A stretch of DNA of 64,000 bases from Colwellia sp. (GTDB taxonomy: Bacteria; Pseudomonadota; Gammaproteobacteria; Enterobacterales; Alteromonadaceae): positions 222,102-286,101 of the forward strand of contig NZ_JABSPA010000001.1 of the NCBI RefSeq assembly GCF_013214175.1, written 5' to 3'. A model generated the notes under the pieces. It did not search any database. It saw only the letters and a program-made list of their open reading frames with translations, and had not been told where the DNA came from. Shown one piece after another: positions 50,678 through 64,000 of this stretch. The translations under genes and the position numbers were made by a program. Positions within the stretch are counted from its first letter, which is position 1. Each line of letters opens with the position of its first letter.

Positions 50678-52714
50678 ATGAAAAAAACAGCATTAGCATT
50701 AATTATCGCAGCCTTCTCAATTTCGGCGTTTTCAGCCGATCATAACCATGCACATTTAAGTAAGATTGGAGATAACGGTGGTAAAAATGCCACTAATGCA
50801 ACTATCGAATACAATAATGAATTTGCTAAAACCCTGAACTTTAAAGATGTACGTGCCTTTGAAAATAATAATCGTGGTTTAATTGCTGAATTTGACCAAG
50901 CAACAGGTGACATTATTCGCAATAGCTTTAATTTTATTAATGCCGATGTAGCGAATGCAGACAATGCCCCTGATTCAGTCAACCCTTCATTATGGCGTCA
51001 AGCGGTGTTAAACCAAGCCGCAACTGGTTTGTACGAAGTGGTACCGGGAAAAGTTTACCAAGTACGTGGTGCGGACTTAGCGTCAATCTCATTTATCCGT
51101 AGTGATAATGGTTGGATTGTTTATGATGTGCTACTTACCAAAGAGGCGGCAGCACAATCGCTGAAGTTCTTCCAAGAAAATGTACCAGAAGCAGGTAAGT
51201 TACCCATTGTCGCAATGATTTATTCTCATTCTCATGCAGATCACTTTGGCGGCTCTCGCGCTATTAAAGATGCTTTCCCGAATGTGAAAGTATACGGCTC
51301 AAAAAATATCACTAAAGAGATTGTTGATGAAAATGTTTTAGCGGGTAACGCTATGTCACGTCGTGCAGCATATCAATATGGCGCAACGTTAAATCGCCAT
51401 GAACACGGTATTGTTGATGCTGCGCTTTCAAAAGGTTTATCGAAAGGTGAAATTACCTATGTTCAACCTGATTATGAATTAAATCATAAGGAAGAGATTG
51501 AAACATTGGTTCTTGATGGTTTAGAAATGAAGTTTATGGATGCATCTGGTACCGAAGCTGAGTCTGAAATGGTTACCTATATTCCAAGTCTTAATGCACT
51601 GTGGGCAGGTGAGCTAACCTATCAAGGTATGCATAATGTTTATACCTTACGTGGCGCTAAAGTACGTGACTCTTTAAAATGGTCTAAAAAAATTAACGAA
51701 ATGTTAGTGACTTGGGGGGCGAAAACAGAGGTATTGTTTGCCTCGCATTCAGCACCTATTTGGGGAACTGAAGAAATAGGCGCTTACTTAAAAATGCAAC
51801 GTGATGCTTATGGTTTCACCCATAACCAAACACTACGTTTAGCCAACAATGGTTATGTTATGCAAGATTTGGGTGACAAAATCTACGAAGTAATGCCGAC
51901 AAGTATTCAGCAAAGCTGGCATACCAATGGTTATCACGGCTCATATTCACATAACTCTCGTGCAGTTTACAATATGTACCTAGGTTACTTTGATATGAAT
52001 CCAGCTAATTTAAACCCGCTACCAATAAAAGCAGAGTCAGCAAAATTTGTTGAATATATGGGCGGTAGCAAGTTGGTACTAGAAAAAGCACACGCTGATT
52101 ATGCTAAAGGTGAATACCGTTTTGTCGCAACAGCGTTAAACAAAGTTATTCAAGTTGAGCCAAATAATGCTGCAGCACGTAAATTATTAGCAGACTCTTA
52201 TGAGCAACTTGGTTATCAAGCTGAAAGTGCTGGCTGGAGAAATACTTACCTTACCGGTGCGCAAGAGTTACGTGTTGGTACTTTACCGGGTAATCCAAAA
52301 ACAGCCTCAGCAGATGTATTAGCTGAAATGACCATTGAAAATTTATTGGATTTTATGGCAGTACGAGTCGATTCGGTAAAAGCACAACACACACCGTTTA
52401 CCTTAAATGTTGTGTTACCTGATACGAAAGAAGTGTTTTTTGTTGAAATGTCTAACGGTAACTTAAGTAACATCAAGGTAGATAAAACGTTAGTAGCGGA
52501 TGCAACCTTGTATATTAACCGTAGCGATGTCACTAAAACCATCTTAAAACAAACGACATTAAAAGCGCTTTTTTCCAGTAAAAAAGCAGGCCTAGAAGGT
52601 CAGCAAGACGTGTTAAACAAATTACTCAGTGCCTTGGTTGAATTTGATGAAATCTTTGAAATTGTACCGCGCCCTGAAAAAGGACAAGAAGTAGATGCTC
52701 AGCTATACCACTAG
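50678..52714 (+). CDS. Secreted alkylsulfatase, metallo-beta-lactamase fold (SdsA1-like)
   Basis: 678 residues with a Sec signal peptide ending at AFSADH. It hydrolyses primary alkyl sulfates to alcohol and sulfate in characterised relatives. The dinuclear zinc site motif reads MIYSHSHADHFGGSRAI (near residue 185), with further ligands in ALWAGELTYQGMHNVYTL and FASHSAPIWG. The dimerisation domain follows (YGFTHNQTLRL, YHGSYSHNSRAVYNMYLGYF), and the last 130 residues form an SCP2-like lipid-binding domain. The length and domain order match SdsA1/BDS1. It is expressed from the region shared with the LysR gene and ends at a bidirectional terminator. Confidence 0.93.
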   Translation: MKKTALALIIAAFSISAFSADHNHAHLSKIGDNGGKNATNATIEYNNEFAKTLNFKDVRAFENNNRGLIAEFDQATGDIIRNSFNFINADVANADNAPDSVNPSLWRQAVLNQAATGLYEVVPGKVYQVRGADLASISFIRSDNGWIVYDVLLTKEAAAQSLKFFQENVPEAGKLPIVAMIYSHSHADHFGGSRAIKDAFPNVKVYGSKNITKEIVDENVLAGNAMSRRAAYQYGATLNRHEHGIVDAALSKGLSKGEITYVQPDYELNHKEEIETLVLDGLEMKFMDASGTEAESEMVTYIPSLNALWAGELTYQGMHNVYTLRGAKVRDSLKWSKKINEMLVTWGAKTEVLFASHSAPIWGTEEIGAYLKMQRDAYGFTHNQTLRLANNGYVMQDLGDKIYEVMPTSIQQSWHTNGYHGSYSHNSRAVYNMYLGYFDMNPANLNPLPIKAESAKFVEYMGGSKLVLEKAHADYAKGEYRFVATALNKVIQVEPNNAAARKLLADSYEQLGYQAESAGWRNTYLTGAQELRVGTLPGNPKTASADVLAEMTIENLLDFMAVRVDSVKAQHTPFTLNVVLPDTKEVFFVEMSNGNLSNIKVDKTLVADATLYINRSDVTKTILKQTTLKALFSSKKAGLEGQQDVLNKLLSALVEFDEIFEIVPRPEKGQEVDAQLYH

Positions 52715-52929: not shown

Positions 52930-55110
52930 CTAGAAATCGTAACGCATTGAAACAGAGAAGCCACGACCCGCTTCAGTAACATCGGATAAAGTCGAAATAT
53001 CTTTGTGGCCAGCGCCGTTTAGATATCTTACGTATTCTTTATCGGTAATGTTAGTTATCGCTAAGTTAACTCTAAATTCATCGCTTACTTGGTAGCTAGT
53101 TAAGAAATCAACCGTGCCATAACCAGCAACTTCTGCATTACCTTCATTCACTTTTTCCATACGAGTCGCCCAGTTAACAATTAATTCAGCAAATAAATCA
53201 TCAACTTCATAACTAACTCCGGTAATGCCTGAAAGTGGCGAGATACTAGTTAGGTAATCACCGGTTTCATCATCTTTACCGTCCTGATAAGCGGCATTGG
53301 CAAATACTGAGAAGCTATCATTTAAGTGATAACGTACCGATGCTTCAATACCTTTAAGCGTCACGGAGTCAATATTTTGGTATTGATAAACAAGTACTTG
53401 TGCTTCTTGGCCAGTGTATGGATTAATACTGGTTTCAATATCAATTAACTCCGTAGATAAGAAGTTATCATACTTACTGTAATAAATTGCCGTTGAAAAG
53501 AAGAAATCACCGGTATGGCCACGTAAACCAATTTCAAAGTTATCACTTTCTTCTGGTGCTAAATCATCACTAGGGACAATTTTATAACCATACATTGAGT
53601 TATCATGTTCAATGTAAGCTAAGTCATAAGCGGGAACTTTAAAACCTTGGCCATATTGGGCAAAACCGGCAATGGTATCGGTAAATTTATACAAGCCGCC
53701 AATGCTTAATGACACATGGTTTTCATCAAAATCAGTAAAAGTCGTACCATCTTCTTTTAGAGCACCATTAGCATCCATTTCATACATATCAAAACGAGCT
53801 CCTGGGGTAATTAAAAGGCTGCCATCTAACAAAGAAATTTCGTCATTTAAGAAAAAACCAGCGCGAAAAACATCAGTTTCTGGGAATTTATCAGTTTCTT
53901 TTGGGTAACCTGGCTTAGGTGTACCTTCTACTGAGTACAGTTTCACTTCTGTACGACTAGAAGTTGATTGTTCAACATCTAAACCATAACCAATAGTGTG
54001 AGTTTCATTAAGTGCTAAACTTGCATTTGATAAGAAGCCGACAGTCTCTTGTTTATAAACCGAGGTTTTCCACATATCGCGAAGTTCTGCTGGCGAGTGC
54101 GGGTTGGCAGCAATATCTATCTGACCATATTCAACATCTTCTTGCTCACTGCTATTTACATATAGCGAGACATTGAGCATGTCATAAACGGCAGTTGCTG
54201 ACTCACTATGAAAGCGCAATTGAAAGGACTGGTTATCTTTTTCACTTTCACTGTTTTCATCAACAATGTTATAACCGTCAAGGTTTCTAAAGTAACCTAA
54301 TAGACCGTAAGCAACATCACCAGCAACGTCTTGATTCCAAATATCAGCAGTAAAGCTAAGGTAAGTGTCTTCATTGAAGTTGTATTTTGCTTTGTAGAAA
54401 ATACTCGTTGATTCAATGTCTAATGAAGGTTTAGTACCTGCATAGTTTTGTGTCTCTTCACCACTGCGATAGTTCAAGTTAAGTACTTGCTCGAAATCAT
54501 CGGTTGCTAGGGCAAAAGTGGTACCAATGTGGCTTTGTTTACCGTCATCGGTATAACCTGCCTTAACATTACCAGCAAAGGTTTCACCCTCTTCAAGGTA
54601 ATCACTAGCATCTTTAGTGGTGAAAACCACAATACCACCTAAGGCATCAGAGCCGTAAAGTGAAGATGATGCACCTTTAGCGACTTCTACTTGCTTTAAA
54701 GTCTCGGTTTCAATGAAGCCACGGCCAACAATGTCATTTAAACCATTAGCGCCATAACCTTCGTTCATGCGCATGCCGTCTTTGATCATCAAGACACGAT
54801 CGCCGCCCATACCACGGACGATAATATTTTGCGCGCCACCTGTACTGCCAGTTACTTGCACACTTGGATCATATTTAAATAACTGGTTCATATCAGTAAC
54901 CAGTTGTCTTTCAATGTCTTGCTCAGTAATTACCGAGATACTACCAGCAACATCCTTTAGCGGCTTTTCTGTTTTAGTTCCACTAATAACAATTCTTTCA
55001 AAGTCACTATGAACAGTGTCATAGATATTACCTTCAGCATAACTTGATGGTGCAAAAAAAATGGCTGTTGAAATGGCGGTGGCTAGCAGGGCGCGCTTGG
55101 GCATAAACAT
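52930..55110 (-). CDS. TonB-dependent outer-membrane receptor, haem/haemoglobin-type (HmuR-like)
   Basis: 726 residues with a Sec signal (cleavage near SSYAEG). The plug domain has VISGTKTEKPLKDV (TonB-box region), IIVRGMGGDRVLMIKDGMR and VEVAKGASSSLYGSDALGGI. A 22-strand barrel follows and ends VSMRYDF with a terminal Phe. The regions FAQYGQGFKVPAYDLAY and SDDLAPEESDNFEIGLRG are placed like the FRAP and NPNL boxes of haem receptors, though both are diverged. AGGAA precedes the ATG. It is divergent from ExbB-like, DUF2149 and CobN-like genes across a Fur-like site. Haem as ligand is inferred; a cobalamin-like corrinoid or another tetrapyrrole is possible. Confidence 0.88.
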   Translation of the reverse strand: MFMPKRALLATAISTAIFFAPSSYAEGNIYDTVHSDFERIVISGTKTEKPLKDVAGSISVITEQDIERQLVTDMNQLFKYDPSVQVTGSTGGAQNIIVRGMGGDRVLMIKDGMRMNEGYGANGLNDIVGRGFIETETLKQVEVAKGASSSLYGSDALGGIVVFTTKDASDYLEEGETFAGNVKAGYTDDGKQSHIGTTFALATDDFEQVLNLNYRSGEETQNYAGTKPSLDIESTSIFYKAKYNFNEDTYLSFTADIWNQDVAGDVAYGLLGYFRNLDGYNIVDENSESEKDNQSFQLRFHSESATAVYDMLNVSLYVNSSEQEDVEYGQIDIAANPHSPAELRDMWKTSVYKQETVGFLSNASLALNETHTIGYGLDVEQSTSSRTEVKLYSVEGTPKPGYPKETDKFPETDVFRAGFFLNDEISLLDGSLLITPGARFDMYEMDANGALKEDGTTFTDFDENHVSLSIGGLYKFTDTIAGFAQYGQGFKVPAYDLAYIEHDNSMYGYKIVPSDDLAPEESDNFEIGLRGHTGDFFFSTAIYYSKYDNFLSTELIDIETSINPYTGQEAQVLVYQYQNIDSVTLKGIEASVRYHLNDSFSVFANAAYQDGKDDETGDYLTSISPLSGITGVSYEVDDLFAELIVNWATRMEKVNEGNAEVAGYGTVDFLTSYQVSDEFRVNLAITNITDKEYVRYLNGAGHKDISTLSDVTEAGRGFSVSMRYDF

Positions 55111-55260
55111 GGTGTATTCCTAATAAGTATGCTTACCAAGTGTGTTAGTGCATGTTAACTAATAGAAAATTGTTACTTGCTACAACAGTTTGGTAATCAA
55201 TGGGGTTGTTATTAATTTATGGCGAGTACCATACAGATCATAAACGTAAATGTAAATCTA

Positions 55261-55279
55261 AATGGGAATAATTACTATT
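55261..55279. promoter_or_regulatory. Fur-box-like site in divergent promoter
   Basis: AATGGGAATAATTACTATT agrees with the Fur consensus AATGATAATNATTATCATT at 14 of 18 defined positions. It lies between the receptor gene (minus) and the ExbB-like gene (plus), so it could control both by iron. Confidence 0.5.
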
Positions 55280-55341
55280 TGAATTAAGGTTGCAGGAGTT
55301 GTACAATTGTTTAGCTTAAATTTTAGGAGAGACTTAGCACA

Positions 55342-55881
55342 GTGAATATTCAATCTTTAGAAGTTACCATGGCGCAAACATCAGAATTTTTGATGACGCC
55401 AGTTATTATTTTAATTTGTTCGTTAGTGGTTTATGCCATTTATGCCCTGGGAAGATTTTTCTCACAGTATTTAGTTAGAAAGCAAAATAAGTTGGCTTAT
55501 GTTCGCCAGATTTCCCAAGCAGACTTGCCGAAGGTGACCACACATAATGGTTACCCTATCCATAACTACTTTATTAATAATCCCCAAGCCAGTGAAGATG
55601 AATTAGAAGTGGTGGCGCTAAAGCAATTAGAAAATTTGCGCATAGTGACGCGAATTGCACCCATGCTAGGTTTGATTGCCACCATGATCCCGATGGGACC
55701 AGCACTGCAGGCATTAGCCGATGGTAATATCCAAGGTATTAGTGAAAGTTTGATTATTGCCTTTGCTGCCGTTATTTGGGGCATGGTTATTTCATCGCTA
55801 ACGTTTTGGCCTGCATCGGTGAAAAAACGCTGGTGTGCCGTTGAATTAATTAACATTCGAAAAATTAAAGGCAACGCATAA
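55342..55881 (+). CDS. MotA/TolQ/ExbB-family proton-channel protein (HmuU-like)
   Basis: 179 residues with three predicted helices: one near the N-terminus (FLMTPVIILICSLVVYAIYA) and a pair in the conserved channel region, APMLGLIATMIPMGPALQAL and IIAFAAVIWGMVISSLTFW. This is the MotA/TolQ/ExbB pattern, whose members pair with an ExbD-type protein to pass protons and do mechanical work. GTG start with AGGAGA upstream; an ATG at 55369 is an alternative. The stop overlaps the next start (TAATG), so it is coupled to the DUF2149 protein. Confidence 0.88.
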   Translation: MNIQSLEVTMAQTSEFLMTPVIILICSLVVYAIYALGRFFSQYLVRKQNKLAYVRQISQADLPKVTTHNGYPIHNYFINNPQASEDELEVVALKQLENLRIVTRIAPMLGLIATMIPMGPALQALADGNIQGISESLIIAFAAVIWGMVISSLTFWPASVKKRWCAVELINIRKIKGNA

Positions 55882-56225
55882 TGCGCTTTCTTGATGAAGA
55901 TGAAGAGCTAAATCCTATTCTTAGTGCGGTTAACTTGGTTGATGTTTTCTTGGTGATCATTGCCGCCTTGTTAATCGCTTTGGCGCAAAATCCTTTGAGC
56001 ACCTTTTCCAGTGAAGATGTCACGGTGATTAAAAATCCCGGTAAACCCAATATGGAAATCATTGTTAAAAAAGGCAAAGAAATTAAAAAATACAAATCAA
56101 CTGGCGAAGTAGGCTCAGGTGAAGGAATGCGTGCTGGTGTTGCTTATACCATGGCCGATGGCAGTTTTGTTTATGTTCCAGAAAATGGTACAGCTCAAAA
56201 AGATACTAAGCCTAACAAAAACTAG
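55881..56225 (+). CDS. DUF2149 protein, probable ExbD-like partner (HmuV-like)
   Basis: 114 residues with a single N-terminal helix preceded by a short acidic cytoplasmic tail. The helix starts NLVDVFLVIIAALLIALAQ: an Asp (residue 21) at the helix entry followed by hydrophobics, exactly the arrangement of the proton-carrying Asp in ExbD/TolR. The remaining 75 residues are a small periplasmic domain. DUF2149 genes are known to travel with ExbB-like and CobN-like genes. Assignment as the ExbD counterpart is my inference from topology and the Asp. Confidence 0.85.
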   Translation: MRFLDEDEELNPILSAVNLVDVFLVIIAALLIALAQNPLSTFSSEDVTVIKNPGKPNMEIIVKKGKEIKKYKSTGEVGSGEGMRAGVAYTMADGSFVYVPENGTAQKDTKPNKN

Positions 56226-56264
56226 ACCTAACAATAACGACGCCTAAATAGGTTCAAAAAAATA

Positions 56265-59200
56265 ATGATAAAAAAAATACTAAAACAACTACCGATACTA
56301 ACGGCTTTTGCACTGATGTGCTTGGCCAATGTCAGTATTGCTGCAGAAGCTACCAAGCTAGATAAACAGCCAACAAATACCAAAAGTAAGCCGCAAGTAT
56401 TACTGATGATGTCATCTCACGCGTCAAAGCCTAAAGGTGACTTATTACAATTATTAGCCAAAGATCAGCCATTTGAGTTAGTTAACTTTTCAACCAAGGG
56501 TAAATCGGACGAAGAAATTAAAGCGGCTTGGTCGAAAGCCAGCTTAATTATGCTTGATGGCATTAATCCTGCTTTGTCTAAATATATGTTTGGTAAATAC
56601 CAAGGTTATCCCGCTGAATTTTCGTCAGTGCCGGTTATCTCTATGGGTGATTTAGCAAACGCTACCATGAACCAAGGGCTATCTAGTGCACAAGCCAAAA
56701 ATATTGGCAGTTACTACAATAATGCTGGTCGTGATAATTATGGTAATTTGATGATTTACCTTGCCAATGACTTTTTAAAGCTATCGACCGTTAGCGCCAA
56801 AGCGCCCATTATTGTGCCAAATGTCGGTTTATACCATTATGATTTCCCCGGTCTGGTAACGAGTGATGAAGAAGCCTTTTTTGAACATTTAAATATTAGC
56901 GATAATCAACCGGTGATTGCCATTGGTATTCACCGTAGTGTCGTTGACTATGAACAACAACAAATTGTTGATGCGCTGATCAAAGGCCTTGAAGCCAAGG
57001 GCGCTAAAGCGCTAGCGTATTTCTTTGAAGGTGAAGACCAGCCAATGGACTTTATTGATTTATTGACTGTTGAAAGCTCTGGCAGTGTTGCAAATACCAT
57101 TACTGGGGAAAAGACGAAAAACCGTGTTGATTTATTGATCAACTACCGTTCATTGCATTTTGTTGCTAAACGTCGTGGCGAATTTGAAAAGCTCGGTGTA
57201 CCTGTTTTACATGCTCTTAATTACACCGAAGGTGACCAAGCTAGCTTTGAAGCGGATAATGCCGGTATTTCTCCGTCATTAACGCCATTTTTCTTAGTCA
57301 TGCCAGAAGATACCGGTAGTGCCGATCCAACAATTATCGCCGCTGATAATAATGGCGAGAAAAAGGTTATTGATTACCAATTAAATGCCTTAGTTGAGCG
57401 TGCCTATAATCACGCCAATCTTGCTCACATAAAAAACAGCGAGAAAAAAATAGCGACCTTTATTTGGAATTACCCTCCAGGTGAGAAAAATGTTGGTGCT
57501 GCCTTTTTAGATGTACCAACGTCAATTGAAAATATAGCTAAAGCAATGAAAGAAAAAGGCTATAACGTTGATGTTAAAGGCCATAAAGAAATCATTGAAT
57601 CAGCAGGTAAGTTATTACGTCCATATTACCGTGGTGAAGATGCTGAGCAGTTAATTGCCCTCGACTTAGCTGAATATATGCCATTAACCACTTACCTTAA
57701 TTGGTTCAATGCGTTACCTGAAAATGTCACTAAACCTATTGTTGCAAGGTGGGGCAAGCCAGAAGAAAGCGGCATGTTACGACAAGCTAAAATTAACGGC
57801 GAAACAATCCCGTCATTTGTTATCCCAAGAATGAACCTTGGTAATATGATTATTATGCCACAAGGTGTACGTGGTGAAGATGCCAAAGAACATGCAAACT
57901 TATACCACAGCACTAAAACACCTATTAATCACAGCTACCTAGCTATCTACTTATTTGCCCGTGAAACCTTCGGCGCAGATGCGTATATTCATTTGGGAAC
58001 TCATGGCAGTCAAGAATGGTTAACGGGTAAAGAACGTGGTTTATCAGTGTATGATGCGCCAAGTTTAGCCCTAGGTAACTTACCGGTATTTTATCCTTAT
58101 ATTATTGATAACGTTGGTGAAGCGATGCAGGCTAAACGTCGTGGTCGAGCGACTATGATAAGTCACTTAACGCCAGGGTTTGCTAAGGCAGGTTTATACA
58201 CTGAAGTAGCAACCTTAAGTGAAAAAATTAACAATTACTTAATGTTATCTGAAGGTAAAACTAAAGCGAATACTCAAGATGGCATAATAGTTATGGCACA
58301 AGAGCTAAATATGTTAAAAGATTTAGCTATTGAGCCAGAGACCATGGCAGCTGATTTTGATAAGTATATTGCTAAATTACAAGATCACTTAAATGCCTTG
58401 GCACAAATGAGCCAACCTTTAGGTGTGCATGTTTTTGGTGATTTGCCAAAAGACGCGCACTTATTTACTACCATGTTGCAAATGTTGGGTGATGACTTTA
58501 CTGCCCGTGCTGCAAAGTATGAGCAAGCCAATAACATGACAGTGCCTGCGACTGAGCAGTTTGATAAGCGTAATGTTAAAAAGCTACCGGCTCTTGAAGG
58601 TTTTCAATTATTAAAAGCCTATATAGAGCACCCTGAGACTGTAACTGATCTAGGTGAACAATTAGTTGCTGATCTAGCGATAGCGAAAACCTATTGGCAT
58701 AACTTCCAAGCCATAGCTGAAACACAAAACTTATTGTTTGCCCTCGATGCTAACTATATTCCTACCAGTTACGGTGGTGACCCAATTCGTAACCCAGAAG
58801 CTGCGCCAACCGGTCGTAACCTTATTGGTTTTAACCCAGCAAAAGTACCTTCAAAAGAAGCTTACGATGCTGGTGTTATCTTAATGAACCAAACCATTGA
58901 TGCTTATGTTGAAAAGCATGGTAAGTTTCCGCAAAAGTTAGCCTTTTCCTTGTGGTCATTAGAAACTATGCGTCATCAAGGAGCTTTAGAAGCACAAATC
59001 CTCCATGCTCTTGGTTTAAAACCTAAGTGGAACCATCAGGGCCATGTTGTTGGTACGGAAGTCATTCCTTATAGCGAACTTAAACGTCCACGTATCGATG
59101 TGGTTATCTCAACCACAGGTTTATATCGTGATGCTTTTCCTAATGTGATGTTATGGATAGCAAAAGCCATTGATAAAGTGGCTAAGATGAAAGAAGACAA

Positions 59201-60377
59201 TAATTTTGTTTATCGCCACGCAACAGCTTTAAAAGCAGAACTACTTGAAAAAGGCAAGTCAGAAGAAGATGCTGATTACTTATCTTCTATCCGTATTTTC
59301 TCTAATGAAACCGGCAACTATGGTACTGGCTTAGCGGGCAGCTCGTTAGCTTCGGATACTTGGGAAACTGATGATAAATTAGCAAACCTTTACCTTGACC
59401 GAATGGGTTTTGCTTATGGCTCAGATGAAAAGCGTTGGAGTGAAAATGTTGGTGATGCTTTAGGTGAAGGTCAGGGCTTATATTCAAAAGTACTTTCAGG
59501 TACTGAGGCTGTTATTTTCTCACGTTCAACCAACCTTTATGCCTTAATGACTAACGATGACCCGTTCCAATATTTTGGTGGTATCGGGCTAGCAGTACGC
59601 CATTTAGATGGTAAAACGCCGGAAATGTACGTATCAAACTTACGTAAAAAAGATCAGTTAAAAGTACAAACCTTAGCGGAGTTTGTTAACCAAGAAATGC
59701 GTAGTCGTTATTTCCATCCACGTTGGATTAAAGCCATGCAAGACTCTGGTTATGCCGGCGCAACGGTTATCTTAGATCGCATGAACAACATGTGGGGCTG
59801 GGAAGTGATGACGCCTGAAGCGATACGTGATGATCAATGGCAAGAGTTCTTCGAAGTATATGTTGAAGATAAATACCAAATGGATATGCGTGAATTCTTT
59901 GAAGAGCACAACGCTGAAAGCTTAGCGCAAATCATTGAACGTATGCTTGAAGCAGTTCGTAAAGGTTACTGGGATGCAGATGAAGCTACTATCAAGAAAA
60001 TGGTAGAAACTTATTCTGAACTTGCCACGCAATTTGATGTTGTTACTGACAATGTAAAATTCAATGAGTATATGGATACTGCAGCGGTTGGTTTTGGCAT
60101 GATGCCACTATCAGAAGCGCTGGCTCAAGCATTAGCGCAGCCACAAGTTCCGCCACCAGCAGAAGCAGCAAGCCAACCAACTGAACAAGTTTCTGGTCAA
60201 AAGCTGGAAGAGCAGGCTAAAGCTGAGCCGGTAGAAACCGATTACAGTACACTTTATTGGTTACTCGCTATTTTCTTTATTGGCTTGGTTAGTCACTTCG
60301 CTAAACCGACTAAAAAGGTAGTTTGGCTTAAGCCAAATACTGATGGTGCTAAGCAGGTGTTAGATAAAGCCGCGTAA
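56265..60377 (+). CDS. CobN-like chelatase, exported and membrane-anchored (HmuS-like)
   Basis: 1370 residues, homologous to the large subunit of cobaltochelatase/magnesium chelatase. Class landmarks are FIWNYPPGEKNVGAAFLDVP (about 400-420), the metal/porphyrin-site motif HLGTHGSQEWLTGKERGLS (about 575-593), SYGGDPIRNPEAAPTGRNL (about 840-858), VVISTTGLYRDAFPNVMLW and MNNMWGWEVMTP. Unlike cytoplasmic CobN it has a signal peptide (ILTAFALMCLANVSIAAEA) and, near residue 1340, a C-terminal helix (LYWLLAIFFIGLVSHFA) with a short basic tail, so the catalytic body should lie in the periplasm, tethered at its C-terminus. No AAA+ chelatase subunits are nearby. By analogy with Bacteroidetes HmuS it may remove iron from haem. 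Confidence 0.9.
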   Translation: MIKKILKQLPILTAFALMCLANVSIAAEATKLDKQPTNTKSKPQVLLMMSSHASKPKGDLLQLLAKDQPFELVNFSTKGKSDEEIKAAWSKASLIMLDGINPALSKYMFGKYQGYPAEFSSVPVISMGDLANATMNQGLSSAQAKNIGSYYNNAGRDNYGNLMIYLANDFLKLSTVSAKAPIIVPNVGLYHYDFPGLVTSDEEAFFEHLNISDNQPVIAIGIHRSVVDYEQQQIVDALIKGLEAKGAKALAYFFEGEDQPMDFIDLLTVESSGSVANTITGEKTKNRVDLLINYRSLHFVAKRRGEFEKLGVPVLHALNYTEGDQASFEADNAGISPSLTPFFLVMPEDTGSADPTIIAADNNGEKKVIDYQLNALVERAYNHANLAHIKNSEKKIATFIWNYPPGEKNVGAAFLDVPTSIENIAKAMKEKGYNVDVKGHKEIIESAGKLLRPYYRGEDAEQLIALDLAEYMPLTTYLNWFNALPENVTKPIVARWGKPEESGMLRQAKINGETIPSFVIPRMNLGNMIIMPQGVRGEDAKEHANLYHSTKTPINHSYLAIYLFARETFGADAYIHLGTHGSQEWLTGKERGLSVYDAPSLALGNLPVFYPYIIDNVGEAMQAKRRGRATMISHLTPGFAKAGLYTEVATLSEKINNYLMLSEGKTKANTQDGIIVMAQELNMLKDLAIEPETMAADFDKYIAKLQDHLNALAQMSQPLGVHVFGDLPKDAHLFTTMLQMLGDDFTARAAKYEQANNMTVPATEQFDKRNVKKLPALEGFQLLKAYIEHPETVTDLGEQLVADLAIAKTYWHNFQAIAETQNLLFALDANYIPTSYGGDPIRNPEAAPTGRNLIGFNPAKVPSKEAYDAGVILMNQTIDAYVEKHGKFPQKLAFSLWSLETMRHQGALEAQILHALGLKPKWNHQGHVVGTEVIPYSELKRPRIDVVISTTGLYRDAFPNVMLWIAKAIDKVAKMKEDNNFVYRHATALKAELLEKGKSEEDADYLSSIRIFSNETGNYGTGLAGSSLASDTWETDDKLANLYLDRMGFAYGSDEKRWSENVGDALGEGQGLYSKVLSGTEAVIFSRSTNLYALMTNDDPFQYFGGIGLAVRHLDGKTPEMYVSNLRKKDQLKVQTLAEFVNQEMRSRYFHPRWIKAMQDSGYAGATVILDRMNNMWGWEVMTPEAIRDDQWQEFFEVYVEDKYQMDMREFFEEHNAESLAQIIERMLEAVRKGYWDADEATIKKMVETYSELATQFDVVTDNVKFNEYMDTAAVGFGMMPLSEALAQALAQPQVPPPAEAASQPTEQVSGQKLEEQAKAEPVETDYSTLYWLLAIFFIGLVSHFAKPTKKVVWLKPNTDGAKQVLDKAA

Positions 60378-62293: not shown

Positions 62294-62375
62294 ATTCCTC
62301 GTGATTAAATGCGCGCAATATAAATTCATAACACCATATTTAAGACGATATTCAACAAATATTTGGAGTCAAAAA

Positions 62376-64000
62376 GTGTCAATTAAATCTTTCAAACCAA
62401 CGCTATTAAGCTTGGTTATTGCCAGTGCCTTATCTACTACAGCTTTCGCCGACGATGCTGTTAAGGACACTTCAGTAGATGAGCAGTTTACTATTTTTGG
62501 CAACAGTACCGCGGTGAATAATATTCCCGGCAGTGCTCATCAATTATCGCAAGCTGATTTAGAAAAGTTCGATTACACCGACATTATGCGTACCTTGACT
62601 TCAATTCCAGGGGTATATGTTTTAGAAGAAGACGGTTATGGCTTGCGCGCCAACATTGGTATGCGTGGTACTGGCCAAAATCGTAGTGAAAAAGTAACCA
62701 TTATGGAAGATGGCGTATTGGCGGCACCCGCACCATATGCTTCTCCGGCAGCTTATTATTTTCCTACTGCCGGCCGTATGCAGAAAGTAGAAGTACTTAA
62801 AGGTACTTCAAGTGCTATGTATGGTCCACGCACCACAGGTGGCGTAATTAATATGGTATCGCGTCAAATTCCTGAAGAAGAATTAGCTGGCCAGCTTAAT
62901 GTACAAGCGGGGCAAGATGGCTTTGCTAAAATACATGGCGTTATTGGCGGCAAAGGTGAAAACCTGAGTTCGGTATTTGAAGTGTTTCGTTACCAAGCCG
63001 ATGGCTATAAAGACATTAACCACAGTGACCAAGACACAGGTTTTGTTAAAAATGATATTTTGGCAAAGGTTCGTTATAACACCGATGATAATGCCACTTT
63101 TTATCAAGAGATTGAATTTAAAATTAAGTACTCTGATGAAGAGTCTAATGATACTTATATGGGTTTAACGGAAGCTGACTTTAACTCAGATCCTTATAGC
63201 CGCTATTCAGCATCACAAAAAGATAAGATGACTAACGAGCATCTGCAATTACAGTTAAGCCATGTCATTGATTTATCAAATCGCTTTAACTTAGGCACTA
63301 CTGTTTACCACAATGACTTTAGCCGTAATTGGTATAAAACCAGTAAAGTTGATGGTAAAAGCCTAGGAGATGGTGGTATTGAAATCGCCGCAGAGCATGA
63401 CAACATGGCGGCGGGGTCAATTGATGTAGATGTTAAAGCCAATAACCGTGATTATTTATCACAAGGCATTCAAACGGTATTGAATGCGGACTTTAACAGT
63501 CATCAAGTCAAGTTTGGTATTCGTTACCATAAAGATGAAATGGACAGATATCAATGGGTTGATGAGTATTCGTTAGATGCTGATTATAACATGACACTAA
63601 CAAATTCGGGTGAGCCAGGTACCGATTCAAACCGAATTGACAGTGCCAGCGCCTTAGCTTTATTTGTTCATGATGAATGGACTGTCGGCAAGTTTATTGT
63701 AAATGCCGGTCTTCGTTATGAAGACATGGTTATCGAACGTCAAGATTGGGGTAAAGATGATCCACAGCGTTCAGGTATAGCAAAATATAAGAAAAATGAA
63801 GTCGATGTTGTATTGCCATCATTAGCGCTTACTTATCATTTAACTGATGACTTAGTGTTATTAGGTGGTGTACAAAAAGGCTTTGCGCCACCATCACCAG
63901 GCAATGAAGACGCTACAAATGAAGAAAGTATTAACTATGAGCTAGGCGCAAGATACGCTAAAGGTGCTTTCAATGGCGAAGCGCTAGTTTTCTACTCTGA
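62376..64000 (+). CDS. TonB-dependent receptor, FecA-like (3'-truncated by window edge)
   Basis: A frame open from the GTG at 62376 (GGAG seven bases upstream) to the end of the window, 541 codons visible. The signal peptide is LLSLVIASALSTTAFADD. The plug domain has IMRTLTSIPGVYVLEEDGYG, LRANIGMRGTGQNRSEK, TIMEDGVLAAPAPYASPAAY and VEVLKGTSSAMYGPRTTGGV, a pattern typical of the FecA/ferric-siderophore branch. Barrel strands follow, including the conserved GFAPPSPGNEDATNEESINY region near the edge. A likely substrate is ferric citrate or a siderophore; the last part of the barrel is outside the window. The upstream region holds a Fur-like site. Confidence 0.92.
   Translation, partial: MSIKSFKPTLLSLVIASALSTTAFADDAVKDTSVDEQFTIFGNSTAVNNIPGSAHQLSQADLEKFDYTDIMRTLTSIPGVYVLEEDGYGLRANIGMRGTGQNRSEKVTIMEDGVLAAPAPYASPAAYYFPTAGRMQKVEVLKGTSSAMYGPRTTGGVINMVSRQIPEEELAGQLNVQAGQDGFAKIHGVIGGKGENLSSVFEVFRYQADGYKDINHSDQDTGFVKNDILAKVRYNTDDNATFYQEIEFKIKYSDEESNDTYMGLTEADFNSDPYSRYSASQKDKMTNEHLQLQLSHVIDLSNRFNLGTTVYHNDFSRNWYKTSKVDGKSLGDGGIEIAAEHDNMAAGSIDVDVKANNRDYLSQGIQTVLNADFNSHQVKFGIRYHKDEMDRYQWVDEYSLDADYNMTLTNSGEPGTDSNRIDSASALALFVHDEWTVGKFIVNAGLRYEDMVIERQDWGKDDPQRSGIAKYKKNEVDVVLPSLALTYHLTDDLVLLGGVQKGFAPPSPGNEDATNEESINYELGARYAKGAFNGEALVFYS

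Follow-up and report, generated by a model that had tools for sequence, protein, structure and literature searches.

What drives a chelatase that has been exported from the cytoplasm? The question is raised by a four-gene locus of Colwellia sp., located in a stretch of 64,000 nucleotides of contig NZ_JABSPA010000001.1 (GCF_013214175.1, positions 222,102-286,101), which is referred to here as the window. The locus encodes a TonB-dependent receptor, an ExbB/TolQ-like protein, a DUF2149 protein and a CobN-like class I chelatase. An earlier note had described four open reading frames (ORFs) of these kinds at 52930..60377; all four were found there, and their families were assigned with Pfam and NCBIfam models. 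In our reading the locus specifies a periplasmic, membrane-anchored chelatase that strips metal, most likely haem iron, with the help of a dedicated proton-driven motor. We estimate the probability of this reading at about 0.6. The features, in window coordinates, are:

52930..55110, minus strand: TonB-dependent receptor, haemoglobin/haem type (TIGR01786, TIGR01785, PF00593, PF07715)
55260..55281, no strand: Fur-like palindrome AAATGGGAATAATTACTATTTG in the divergent promoter region, a conserved block in 15 layout-A intergenic regions
55342..55881, plus strand: ExbB/TolQ-like protein (HmuU-like), GTG start (PF01618)
55681..55683, plus strand: codon of Thr114 of the ExbB-like protein, invariant in the aligned rows
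55881..56225, plus strand: DUF2149 protein (HmuV-like), N-terminal membrane helix and short periplasmic domain (PF09919)
55941..55943, plus strand: codon of Asp21 in the membrane helix of the DUF2149 protein, Asp in 109 of 109 aligned rows
56265..60377, plus strand: exported CobN-like class I chelatase of 1370 residues (PF02514; best PDB match HmuS, 9d26)
56265..56345, plus strand: signal peptide of the chelatase (approximate, from hydropathy and sequence, MIKKILKQLPILTAFALMCLANVSIAA)
60189..60212, plus strand: juxtamembrane motif VSGQKLEE ([VI]xGxx[ML]), 19 residues ahead of the anchor and proposed as the coupling box
60246..60302, plus strand: membrane anchor at the C-terminus of the chelatase, at about residues 1328-1346 (hydropathy)

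The receptor scored above the curated cut-offs of TIGR01786 (382 vs 324 bits) and TIGR01785 (362 vs 317 bits), the ExbB-like protein above that of PF01618 (28.4 bits, cut-off 22.9), the DUF2149 protein above that of PF09919 (103 bits, cut-off 27.1) and the chelatase above that of the CobN/Mg-chelatase family PF02514 (1016 bits, cut-off 24.5). The chelatase also passed the NCBIfam equivalog NF004644 (CobN; 1257.9 vs 1248 bits), which is a name only. The three forward genes are closely packed: the start of the DUF2149 gene overlaps the stop of the ExbB-like gene, and 39 bases precede the chelatase gene. A simple hydropathy scan of the chelatase detected hydrophobic stretches at residues about 9-27 and about 1328-1346, in agreement with the exported, C-terminally anchored build that the earlier note had claimed. 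With a signal and an anchor the protein does not have the cytoplasmic build of the CobN type; 27 CobN-family proteins lack an anchor. No TonB gene was found among the ORFs of the locus, no permease gene lies between the receptor and the chelatase, and no HmuY or HmuT gene was seen at the locus.

Association of the ExbB-DUF2149 pair with chelatases

PF09919 was found in 17 of 398 Pseudomonadota genomes and in 28 of 61 relatives, 27 of them over the cut-off; the 61 include the window's own genome. The surroundings of all matches except the window's own make up 47 bacterial regions (L and G numbers denote our regions and genomes). They contain 47 DUF2149 ORFs, one of them a fragment; region L090 gave none, and counts are of ORFs. 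In L090 (7818-8240) a canonical ExbD ORF is overlapped by a sub-cut-off PF09919 match of G443. In Pseudomonadota an ExbB gene lies within 600 bp of 47/47 DUF2149 ORFs and a chelatase within 2.5 kb of 46/47. At the lone exception, L069, the gene just upstream of the ExbB-like gene encodes an exported Sel1-repeat protein that has a helix at its C-terminus. This protein (L069 8001-9559) does not have the motif described below, there is no chelatase at the site, and a second copy is present in G415. A TonB receptor is found within 7 kb in 35 of the 47 regions, and a DUF2162-like gene in one. The smallest shared set is ExbB, DUF2149 and chelatase.

All 27 relatives with DUF2149 over the cut-off have a chelatase, and 31 have neither. 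Three have a chelatase only: G433 and G162, both with no anchor and no motif, and G430, interrupted by a stop. For the 61 relatives Fisher's test gives p 2.6e-14, uncorrected for kinship. Of the plasmid records with DUF2149 matches (9 of 10 looked at), 8 have a chelatase within 4 kb; a Paracoccus plasmid has DUF2149 without ExbB or chelatase in the stretch.

In two gene runs the set stands beside a complete Ton system. One of them, on a plasmid of Trichlorobacter lovleyi, was found through its chelatase:

L353 639-12048: double-motor gene run of Trichlorobacter lovleyi pGLOV01

Its order is receptor, DUF2162, ExbB-like, DUF2149, chelatase, annotated exbB, exbD and tonB, and a second receptor. 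The paper on pGLOV01 remarks that CobS and CobT are absent (PMC3403914). The same combination was found in L051, with two ORFs between the chelatase and exbB and with TonB read from the sequence. Since both runs have their own ExbB-ExbD-TonB set, a pair dedicated to TonB would be redundant in them.

The pair also occurs in archaea. In the phylum of Methanosarcina PF09919 was found in 92 of 294 genomes. The 59 archaeal regions hold 62 DUF2149 ORFs, of which 58 have ExbB nearby and 30 a chelatase within 2.5 kb; a TonB receptor was found in 0/59 regions and a DUF2162-like protein in 38/59. Most of the archaeal chelatases near the motor genes have signal-like N-termini, anchors and often large extensions (not L307 and L309). 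A CobN-family match was obtained in 28 of 30 tested archaeal genomes with DUF2149 vs 6 of 20 without it; in these six the open frames have up to 1358 residues, and the one protein read from each had no anchor or motif. Because these relatives of the pair occur without an outer membrane, they suggest that the motor acts on the enzyme and not on an outer-membrane transporter.

According to the earlier note, ATP and AAA+ partners are absent in the periplasm, where the chelatase should work. The window genome has one CobN-like gene. CobS over the cut-off was absent from it (best 21.5 bits vs 558.6; 1 of 14 control genomes passes), CobT not being searched. The best ChlI match was partial (22 bits), and ChlD was not searched; since none of the 14 control genomes, a cyanobacterium included, passed the ChlI cut-off, this search proves little. 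The absence of an ATPase partner is supported for CobS and less sure for ChlI. Elsewhere in the genome five ExbD-family and four TonB_C matches were over the cut-off, thus TonB does not depend on this pair.

Residues of the motor pair and the juxtamembrane motif

Thr114 of the ExbB-like protein stands at the place of ExbB Thr148. Thr114 and Gly110 are invariant in a 110-row alignment. Asp21 of the DUF2149 protein, for which the alignment has 109 rows, we liken to ExbD Asp25; the two Asp residues are in register in weak profile alignments (hhalign, hmmsearch). PF02472 (ExbD) did not match the window DUF2149 protein at E 0.001, PF09919 being its one hit. No DUF2149 relative was detected in one scan of viral contigs.

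The motif [VI]xGxx[ML] is present in 57 of 71 anchored chelatases, vs 1.55 expected from shuffled linkers. The counts are of sequences, not events. They leave out 11 chelatase ORFs of at least 600 residues without a detected C-terminal anchor, which run over a region border, are cytoplasmic, frame-shifted or masked or, in the case of L064, have a weak helix. From Proteobacteria to methanogens the motif stands 15-26 residues before the anchor in all matches but one. The exception, the archaeal L254, has it 5 residues before the helix, and the stricter count is 56. Examples are VTGQKL in Pseudoalteromonas, VKGYKM in Runella, VEGFEM in T. lovleyi, VQGQVM in Azospirillum, VEGLRL in Comamonadaceae and ISGMRL in Diaphorobacter. 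When the DUF2149 proteins were classed by hand as canonical (at least 75 bits) or diverged (up to 54 bits), the motif was found in 57 of 60 chelatases accompanied by a canonical DUF2149 (the misses are L062, L068 and L292); a cruder scripted split gave 49/51 and 8/20. The V, G and M/L columns are conserved through the search pattern, and the independent evidence is in the neighbouring columns alone, which hold 1.4-1.8 bits vs mostly 0.4-1.1 in the flanks. None of the 27 anchorless CobN-family proteins carries the motif within its final 110 residues.

Among 644 ORFs of at least 300 residues in the regions, 62 combine the motif with an anchor: 55 chelatases and 7 others. Five of the seven adjoin a motor pair without an exported chelatase, and two look like chance. 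In L307 (5602-7272) and L309 (5641-7272) the protein is exported, carries VAGHPM and has a helix at its C-terminus; it is assigned to Peripla_BP_2, the family having been tested for L307. Its gene directly precedes the ExbB-DUF2149 genes, and anchorless chelatases are encoded nearby. In L295 (4124-6070), L296 (7746-9674) and L297 (10081-12009), from archaeal genomes, it is an exported NosD/beta-helix protein (family tested for L295) with VEGKRM and an anchor, encoded between two ExbB-DUF2149 pairs. The exported neighbour of the pair in L287, L290 and L291, probably an S-layer-like protein, does not have the motif.

Identity of the chelatase and its metal

The earlier note called the locus Hmu-like. 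The name suits the gene set, which is known as a family of sets, but not the chelatase itself. The window protein and HmuS of B. finegoldii share 25.4% identity in an alignment comprising 61 chelatases. Of the axial haem ligands of HmuS, His254 (in an HGR motif) corresponds to Ser296 and Met79 to Ile100 in the window protein. The place of His254 is occupied by RxLH in 9/9 clade-A rows; HGR is kept in three Bacteroidota HmuS and in L068. Since Aureibacter HmuS, encoded in a hmuY-bearing operon, also lacks Met79 and has Arg there, His254 is the better HmuS marker. In the catalytic cleft His1209 is replaced by Asp1099, while His538, which is superfamily-wide, and Glu577 are kept as His580 and Glu619. 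Methionine density, taken as a proxy for the Met-rich insertion of about 120 residues, reached at most 8 per 100 residues in the window protein and at most 9 in B. finegoldii HmuS, a reference row that itself gives no insertion signal. Residues 295-298 of the window protein form the conserved RxLH of clade A, in which His298 could be another ligand.

In the trees the window protein groups with Pseudoalteromonas and related loci, then with layout-C loci. Runella, T. lovleyi and the exported chelatases of archaea branch off at a greater distance, and a long branch of its own leads to HmuS. Exported and non-exported chelatases were split by a branch with Shimodaira-Hasegawa-like approximate likelihood ratio support (SH-aLRT) of 100 in both quick trees (49+12 rows and 24+7 rows); the exported chelatases are a clade only if the root is placed among the non-exported rows. 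A single clade of the chelatases with canonical DUF2149 received a p-value of 0.21 in the approximately unbiased test (p-AU), which is neutral. HmuS identity was rejected on account of the separate clade and of the missing ligands Met79 and His254. The window protein is a member of another clade of exported class I chelatases, on a branch other than HmuS.

Two observations concern the branches around it. In G418, of the window's genus, L068 (1979-8285) encodes a second, HmuS-like chelatase, which keeps HGR and groups with Bacteroidota; it was perhaps acquired. L063-L067, L070 and L092-L097 make up a branch of longer chelatases with diverged DUF2149 and without the motif, whose aligned rows have GRHS instead of GTHG.

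The family of the receptor and the conservation of the Fur-like box agree with a link to iron or haem, as proposed in the earlier note. AAATGGGAATAATTACTATTTG keeps 12 of the 13 invariant columns in the alignment of the 15 intergenic regions of layout A, the window's included. When a 19-mer Fur consensus was run over the DNA, the window site did no better than chance (12/19, p=0.5). The case for Fur is therefore built on the conservation of the site and on the 7-1-7 form of the box, the label following from likeness to the Fur consensus. Scans with Fur and Zur consensus sequences were uninformative for the site; the intergenic alignment was informative. One FeoB match was found in the window genome. 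Haem iron thus fits here by receptor family, Fur-like box and FeoB match.

The wider family appears to serve further metals, in zinc and nickel contexts. Sets near hyp genes and nikR, and a like operon under Zur, indicate that the mechanism may serve several metals. On Runella slithyformis pRUNSL01 (L350 4281-14998) ExbB, DUF2149 and chelatase genes with a TonB receptor gene lie between hypABF and hypCDE (hyp hydrogenase genes), a nickel setting, and a membrane protein in the set weakly matches NicO and DsbD. On an Azospirillum brasilense plasmid (L363 4596-16554) the order is chelatase, ExbB, DUF2149; ABC transporter genes and a TonB receptor gene come next, and nikR lies on the other strand near the set.

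Two neighbours of the locus are noted. One, at 62301-63998, is another TonB-receptor-like ORF (named from its sequence) that runs off the window end. The other, at 50678-52714, encodes an alkyl sulfatase-like protein of the metallo-beta-lactamase fold with a signal-like N-terminus.

A proposed proton-driven chelatase, rival explanations and known systems

The gene set, the topology read from hydropathy, the conserved residues, the co-occurrence, the archaeal counterpart and the motif can be combined in the following mechanism. Haem would arrive through the divergent receptor, and the chelatase would strip its iron. A complex of five ExbB-like and two DUF2149 subunits, numbers taken over from ExbBD, would conduct protons along a path that includes Thr114 and Asp21. 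This motor would hold on to the chelatase by its C-terminal helix and the VSGQKLEE box, in the way that ExbBD engages TonB by helix and D-box. With each stroke the domains of the chelatase would be moved or forced open, which would bend the porphyrin, let the metal go and free the empty ring. The motor would stand in for the AAA+ ATPases (CobS/CobT or ChlI/ChlD) of cytoplasmic chelatases.

The closest experimental information comes from HmuS. HmuS of B. thetaiotaomicron is a periplasmic haem dechelatase with a cryo-electron microscopy structure, and it needs NADH, not ATP (PMC12583661). The recombinant purified enzyme stops after 1-2 turnovers, and membranes outperform the soluble fraction (PMC12583661). 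A figure legend describes the expression construct as having no membrane helices (PMC12583661), unlike the deposited PDB sequence, which begins with the N-terminal helix. In P. gingivalis inner membranes stimulate HmuS, and an effect of HmuTUV on the activity cannot be excluded according to the authors (PMC13227078). The available parts of the HmuS literature contain no tested role for HmuT, HmuU or HmuV. A search of titles and visible abstracts returned no proposal of a proton-driven chelatase or of a function for DUF2149. The coupling, which the earlier note had thought undescribed, is to this extent still so, allowing for the HmuTUV effect admitted in the P. gingivalis paper.

The pair could also be a spare ExbBD that energises the haem receptor with a TonB from elsewhere, the chelatase being free-standing. 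HmuU and HmuV of B. thetaiotaomicron are taken in this way, as ExbBD for the outer-membrane receptor (PMC12583661, PMC10100974), the same is suggested for P. aeruginosa PA1924 (PMC4542158), and it agrees with the presence of a receptor no more than 7 kb away in 35 of the 47 regions from bacteria. However, the set is present in archaea, where none of 59 regions has a TonB receptor, the two double gene runs have their own ExbB-ExbD-TonB alongside, and elsewhere in the window genome there are matches to ExbD (five) and to TonB (four). The locus itself has no TonB gene among its ORFs and a DUF2149 protein that PF02472 does not match at E 0.001. We consider this unlikely, and a motor for TonB was discarded as the main explanation because of the archaeal sets without receptor and the double gene runs. 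The earlier note's interpretation is upheld in part: the pair goes with the chelatase rather than with the TonB receptor, but identity with HmuS is not supported. Largely because of the archaea and the two double gene runs, the evidence for a motor acting on the chelatase is stronger than that for the printed assumption.

It is quite unlikely that the pair belongs to an inner-membrane importer that, together with HmuT, a DUF2162 protein or a NicO-like permease, takes up metal or porphyrin on proton motive force, the chelatase handing over its product. DUF2162-like proteins, which occur in T. lovleyi, L051 and 38 of the 59 regions from archaea, the Runella protein with weak NicO/DsbD matches in the same slot, and an unannotated membrane protein (HmuT) at three Bacteroidota loci speak for such a role. 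The DUF2162-like gene is present in only 1 of 47 bacterial regions, however, the window locus has no permease between receptor and chelatase, and the smallest shared set consists of ExbB, DUF2149 and chelatase. ExbB-type proteins are not known to serve as solute carriers. The motif and helix might, alternatively, be a sorting or processing signal, like a sortase-type tail, unrelated to the motor. The chelatase tail does look tripartite (motif, helix, basic end), and tails of such build occur in archaea and Gammaproteobacteria. But with one exception the motif stands 15-26 residues before the helix and is common to both domains, it is missing where DUF2149 is diverged, it recurs in other proteins beside motor pairs, and no NCBIfam sorting-tail model matched the window protein at E 0.001. 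A sorting signal is therefore very unlikely.

Several points weigh against a proton-driven motor working on a haem chelatase. In the window protein Val144 takes the place of the second ExbB-family Thr, which about 72% of rows keep. Runella, which is outside the 109-row set, has Glu instead of the membrane Asp of DUF2149, and DUF2149 is not demonstrably ExbD (4.3% probability in the profile comparison). The motif is found in 0/11 chelatases of the diverged-DUF2149 branch, and of three Bacteroidota HmuS two have a GxxM/L remnant (KGGMVL, DKGTVM) and Aureibacter none. Because His254, Met79 and His1209 are not conserved, the active site does not support haem as the substrate. The earlier note had named frequent occurrence of the pair apart from the chelatase as evidence against its proposal; this applies to 1 of 47 ORFs in Pseudomonadota and to 32 of 62 in archaea, where no chelatase lies within 2.5 kb and some of the ORFs are at contig ends. 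A few of these archaeal pairs adjoin another anchored exported protein; for many no candidate was seen. Recombinant HmuS makes some protoporphyrin IX with NADH and no partner (PMC12583661), so the motor is dispensable for the chemistry, and the NADH dependence points to reduction as a driver. At a 30% identity threshold hmuRTUV is reported without hmuS in 981 species (PMC10100974). We also infer rather than observe haem as the substrate, removal as the direction, proton conduction, the grip through the motif and mechanical work on catalysis.

A motor working on the enzyme would explain why purified HmuS halts after 1-2 turnovers. DUF2149 would gain a function and the ExbB/TolQ/MotA motors an archaeal branch, and a reason would emerge for the odd "CobN" genes that occur with zinc in P. 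aeruginosa, with nickel in Runella and Azospirillum, and in methanogens. More generally, and at somewhat less than even odds, ExbB-DUF2149 may be a further envelope motor of the ExbB family, which in bacteria and archaea drives C-terminally anchored extracytoplasmic proteins through a [VI]xGxx[ML] box. Its main client would be the exported chelatase, proton motive force replacing ATP in pulling metals (iron, zinc, nickel) from tetrapyrroles or other chelates, and its archaeal clients would include binding-protein-like and beta-helix proteins. If true, no Ton-like motor has to our knowledge been shown to operate in archaea before, though no search aimed at this was made.

Among known systems, CobN (of aerobic cobalamin synthesis) and ChlH/BchH belong to the same superfamily as the window chelatase by sequence; they are cytoplasmic, work with AAA+ ATPases and insert metal. 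The hmuYRSTUV locus of Bacteroidota (PDB 9d26, 9p4s) shares with the window an exported anchored class I chelatase, an ExbB-like protein, DUF2149, a TonB receptor and the cleft residues His538/Glu577, whereas HmuY and HmuT genes, the axial ligands and His1209 are found on the Bacteroidota side only. PA1922-PA1925 of P. aeruginosa, which the layout-C loci resemble in gene order, comprises genes for a TonB receptor and a CobN-like protein, one gene with the annotation ExbD and one hypothetical; the comparison is by annotation only (PMC4542158). It is a zinc-starvation operon under Zur, in contrast to the Fur-like site at the window; its role "remains to be determined" (PMC4542158), and a later review reads it as zinc uptake (PMC8456098). 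The force transducers of vWA type proposed beside TolQ-like motors are likewise suggested proton-driven clients other than TonB and TolA; they differ in being vWA proteins, and the available text mentions neither a chelatase nor archaea (PMC12204202).

The motor itself is most like ExbB-ExbD-TonB and TolQ-TolR-TolA, which also combine an ExbB-family protein with a single-helix partner carrying a membrane Asp. In the window DUF2149 takes the place of ExbD, and the driven protein would be an enzyme. TonB and the window chelatase each combine a membrane helix with a short membrane-proximal box; being anchored at its C-terminus, the chelatase has a topology inverted relative to TonB. The D-box of TonB binds ExbD by strand addition (PMC10907165). 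The chelatase motif resembles it in position and supposed role, not in its letters.

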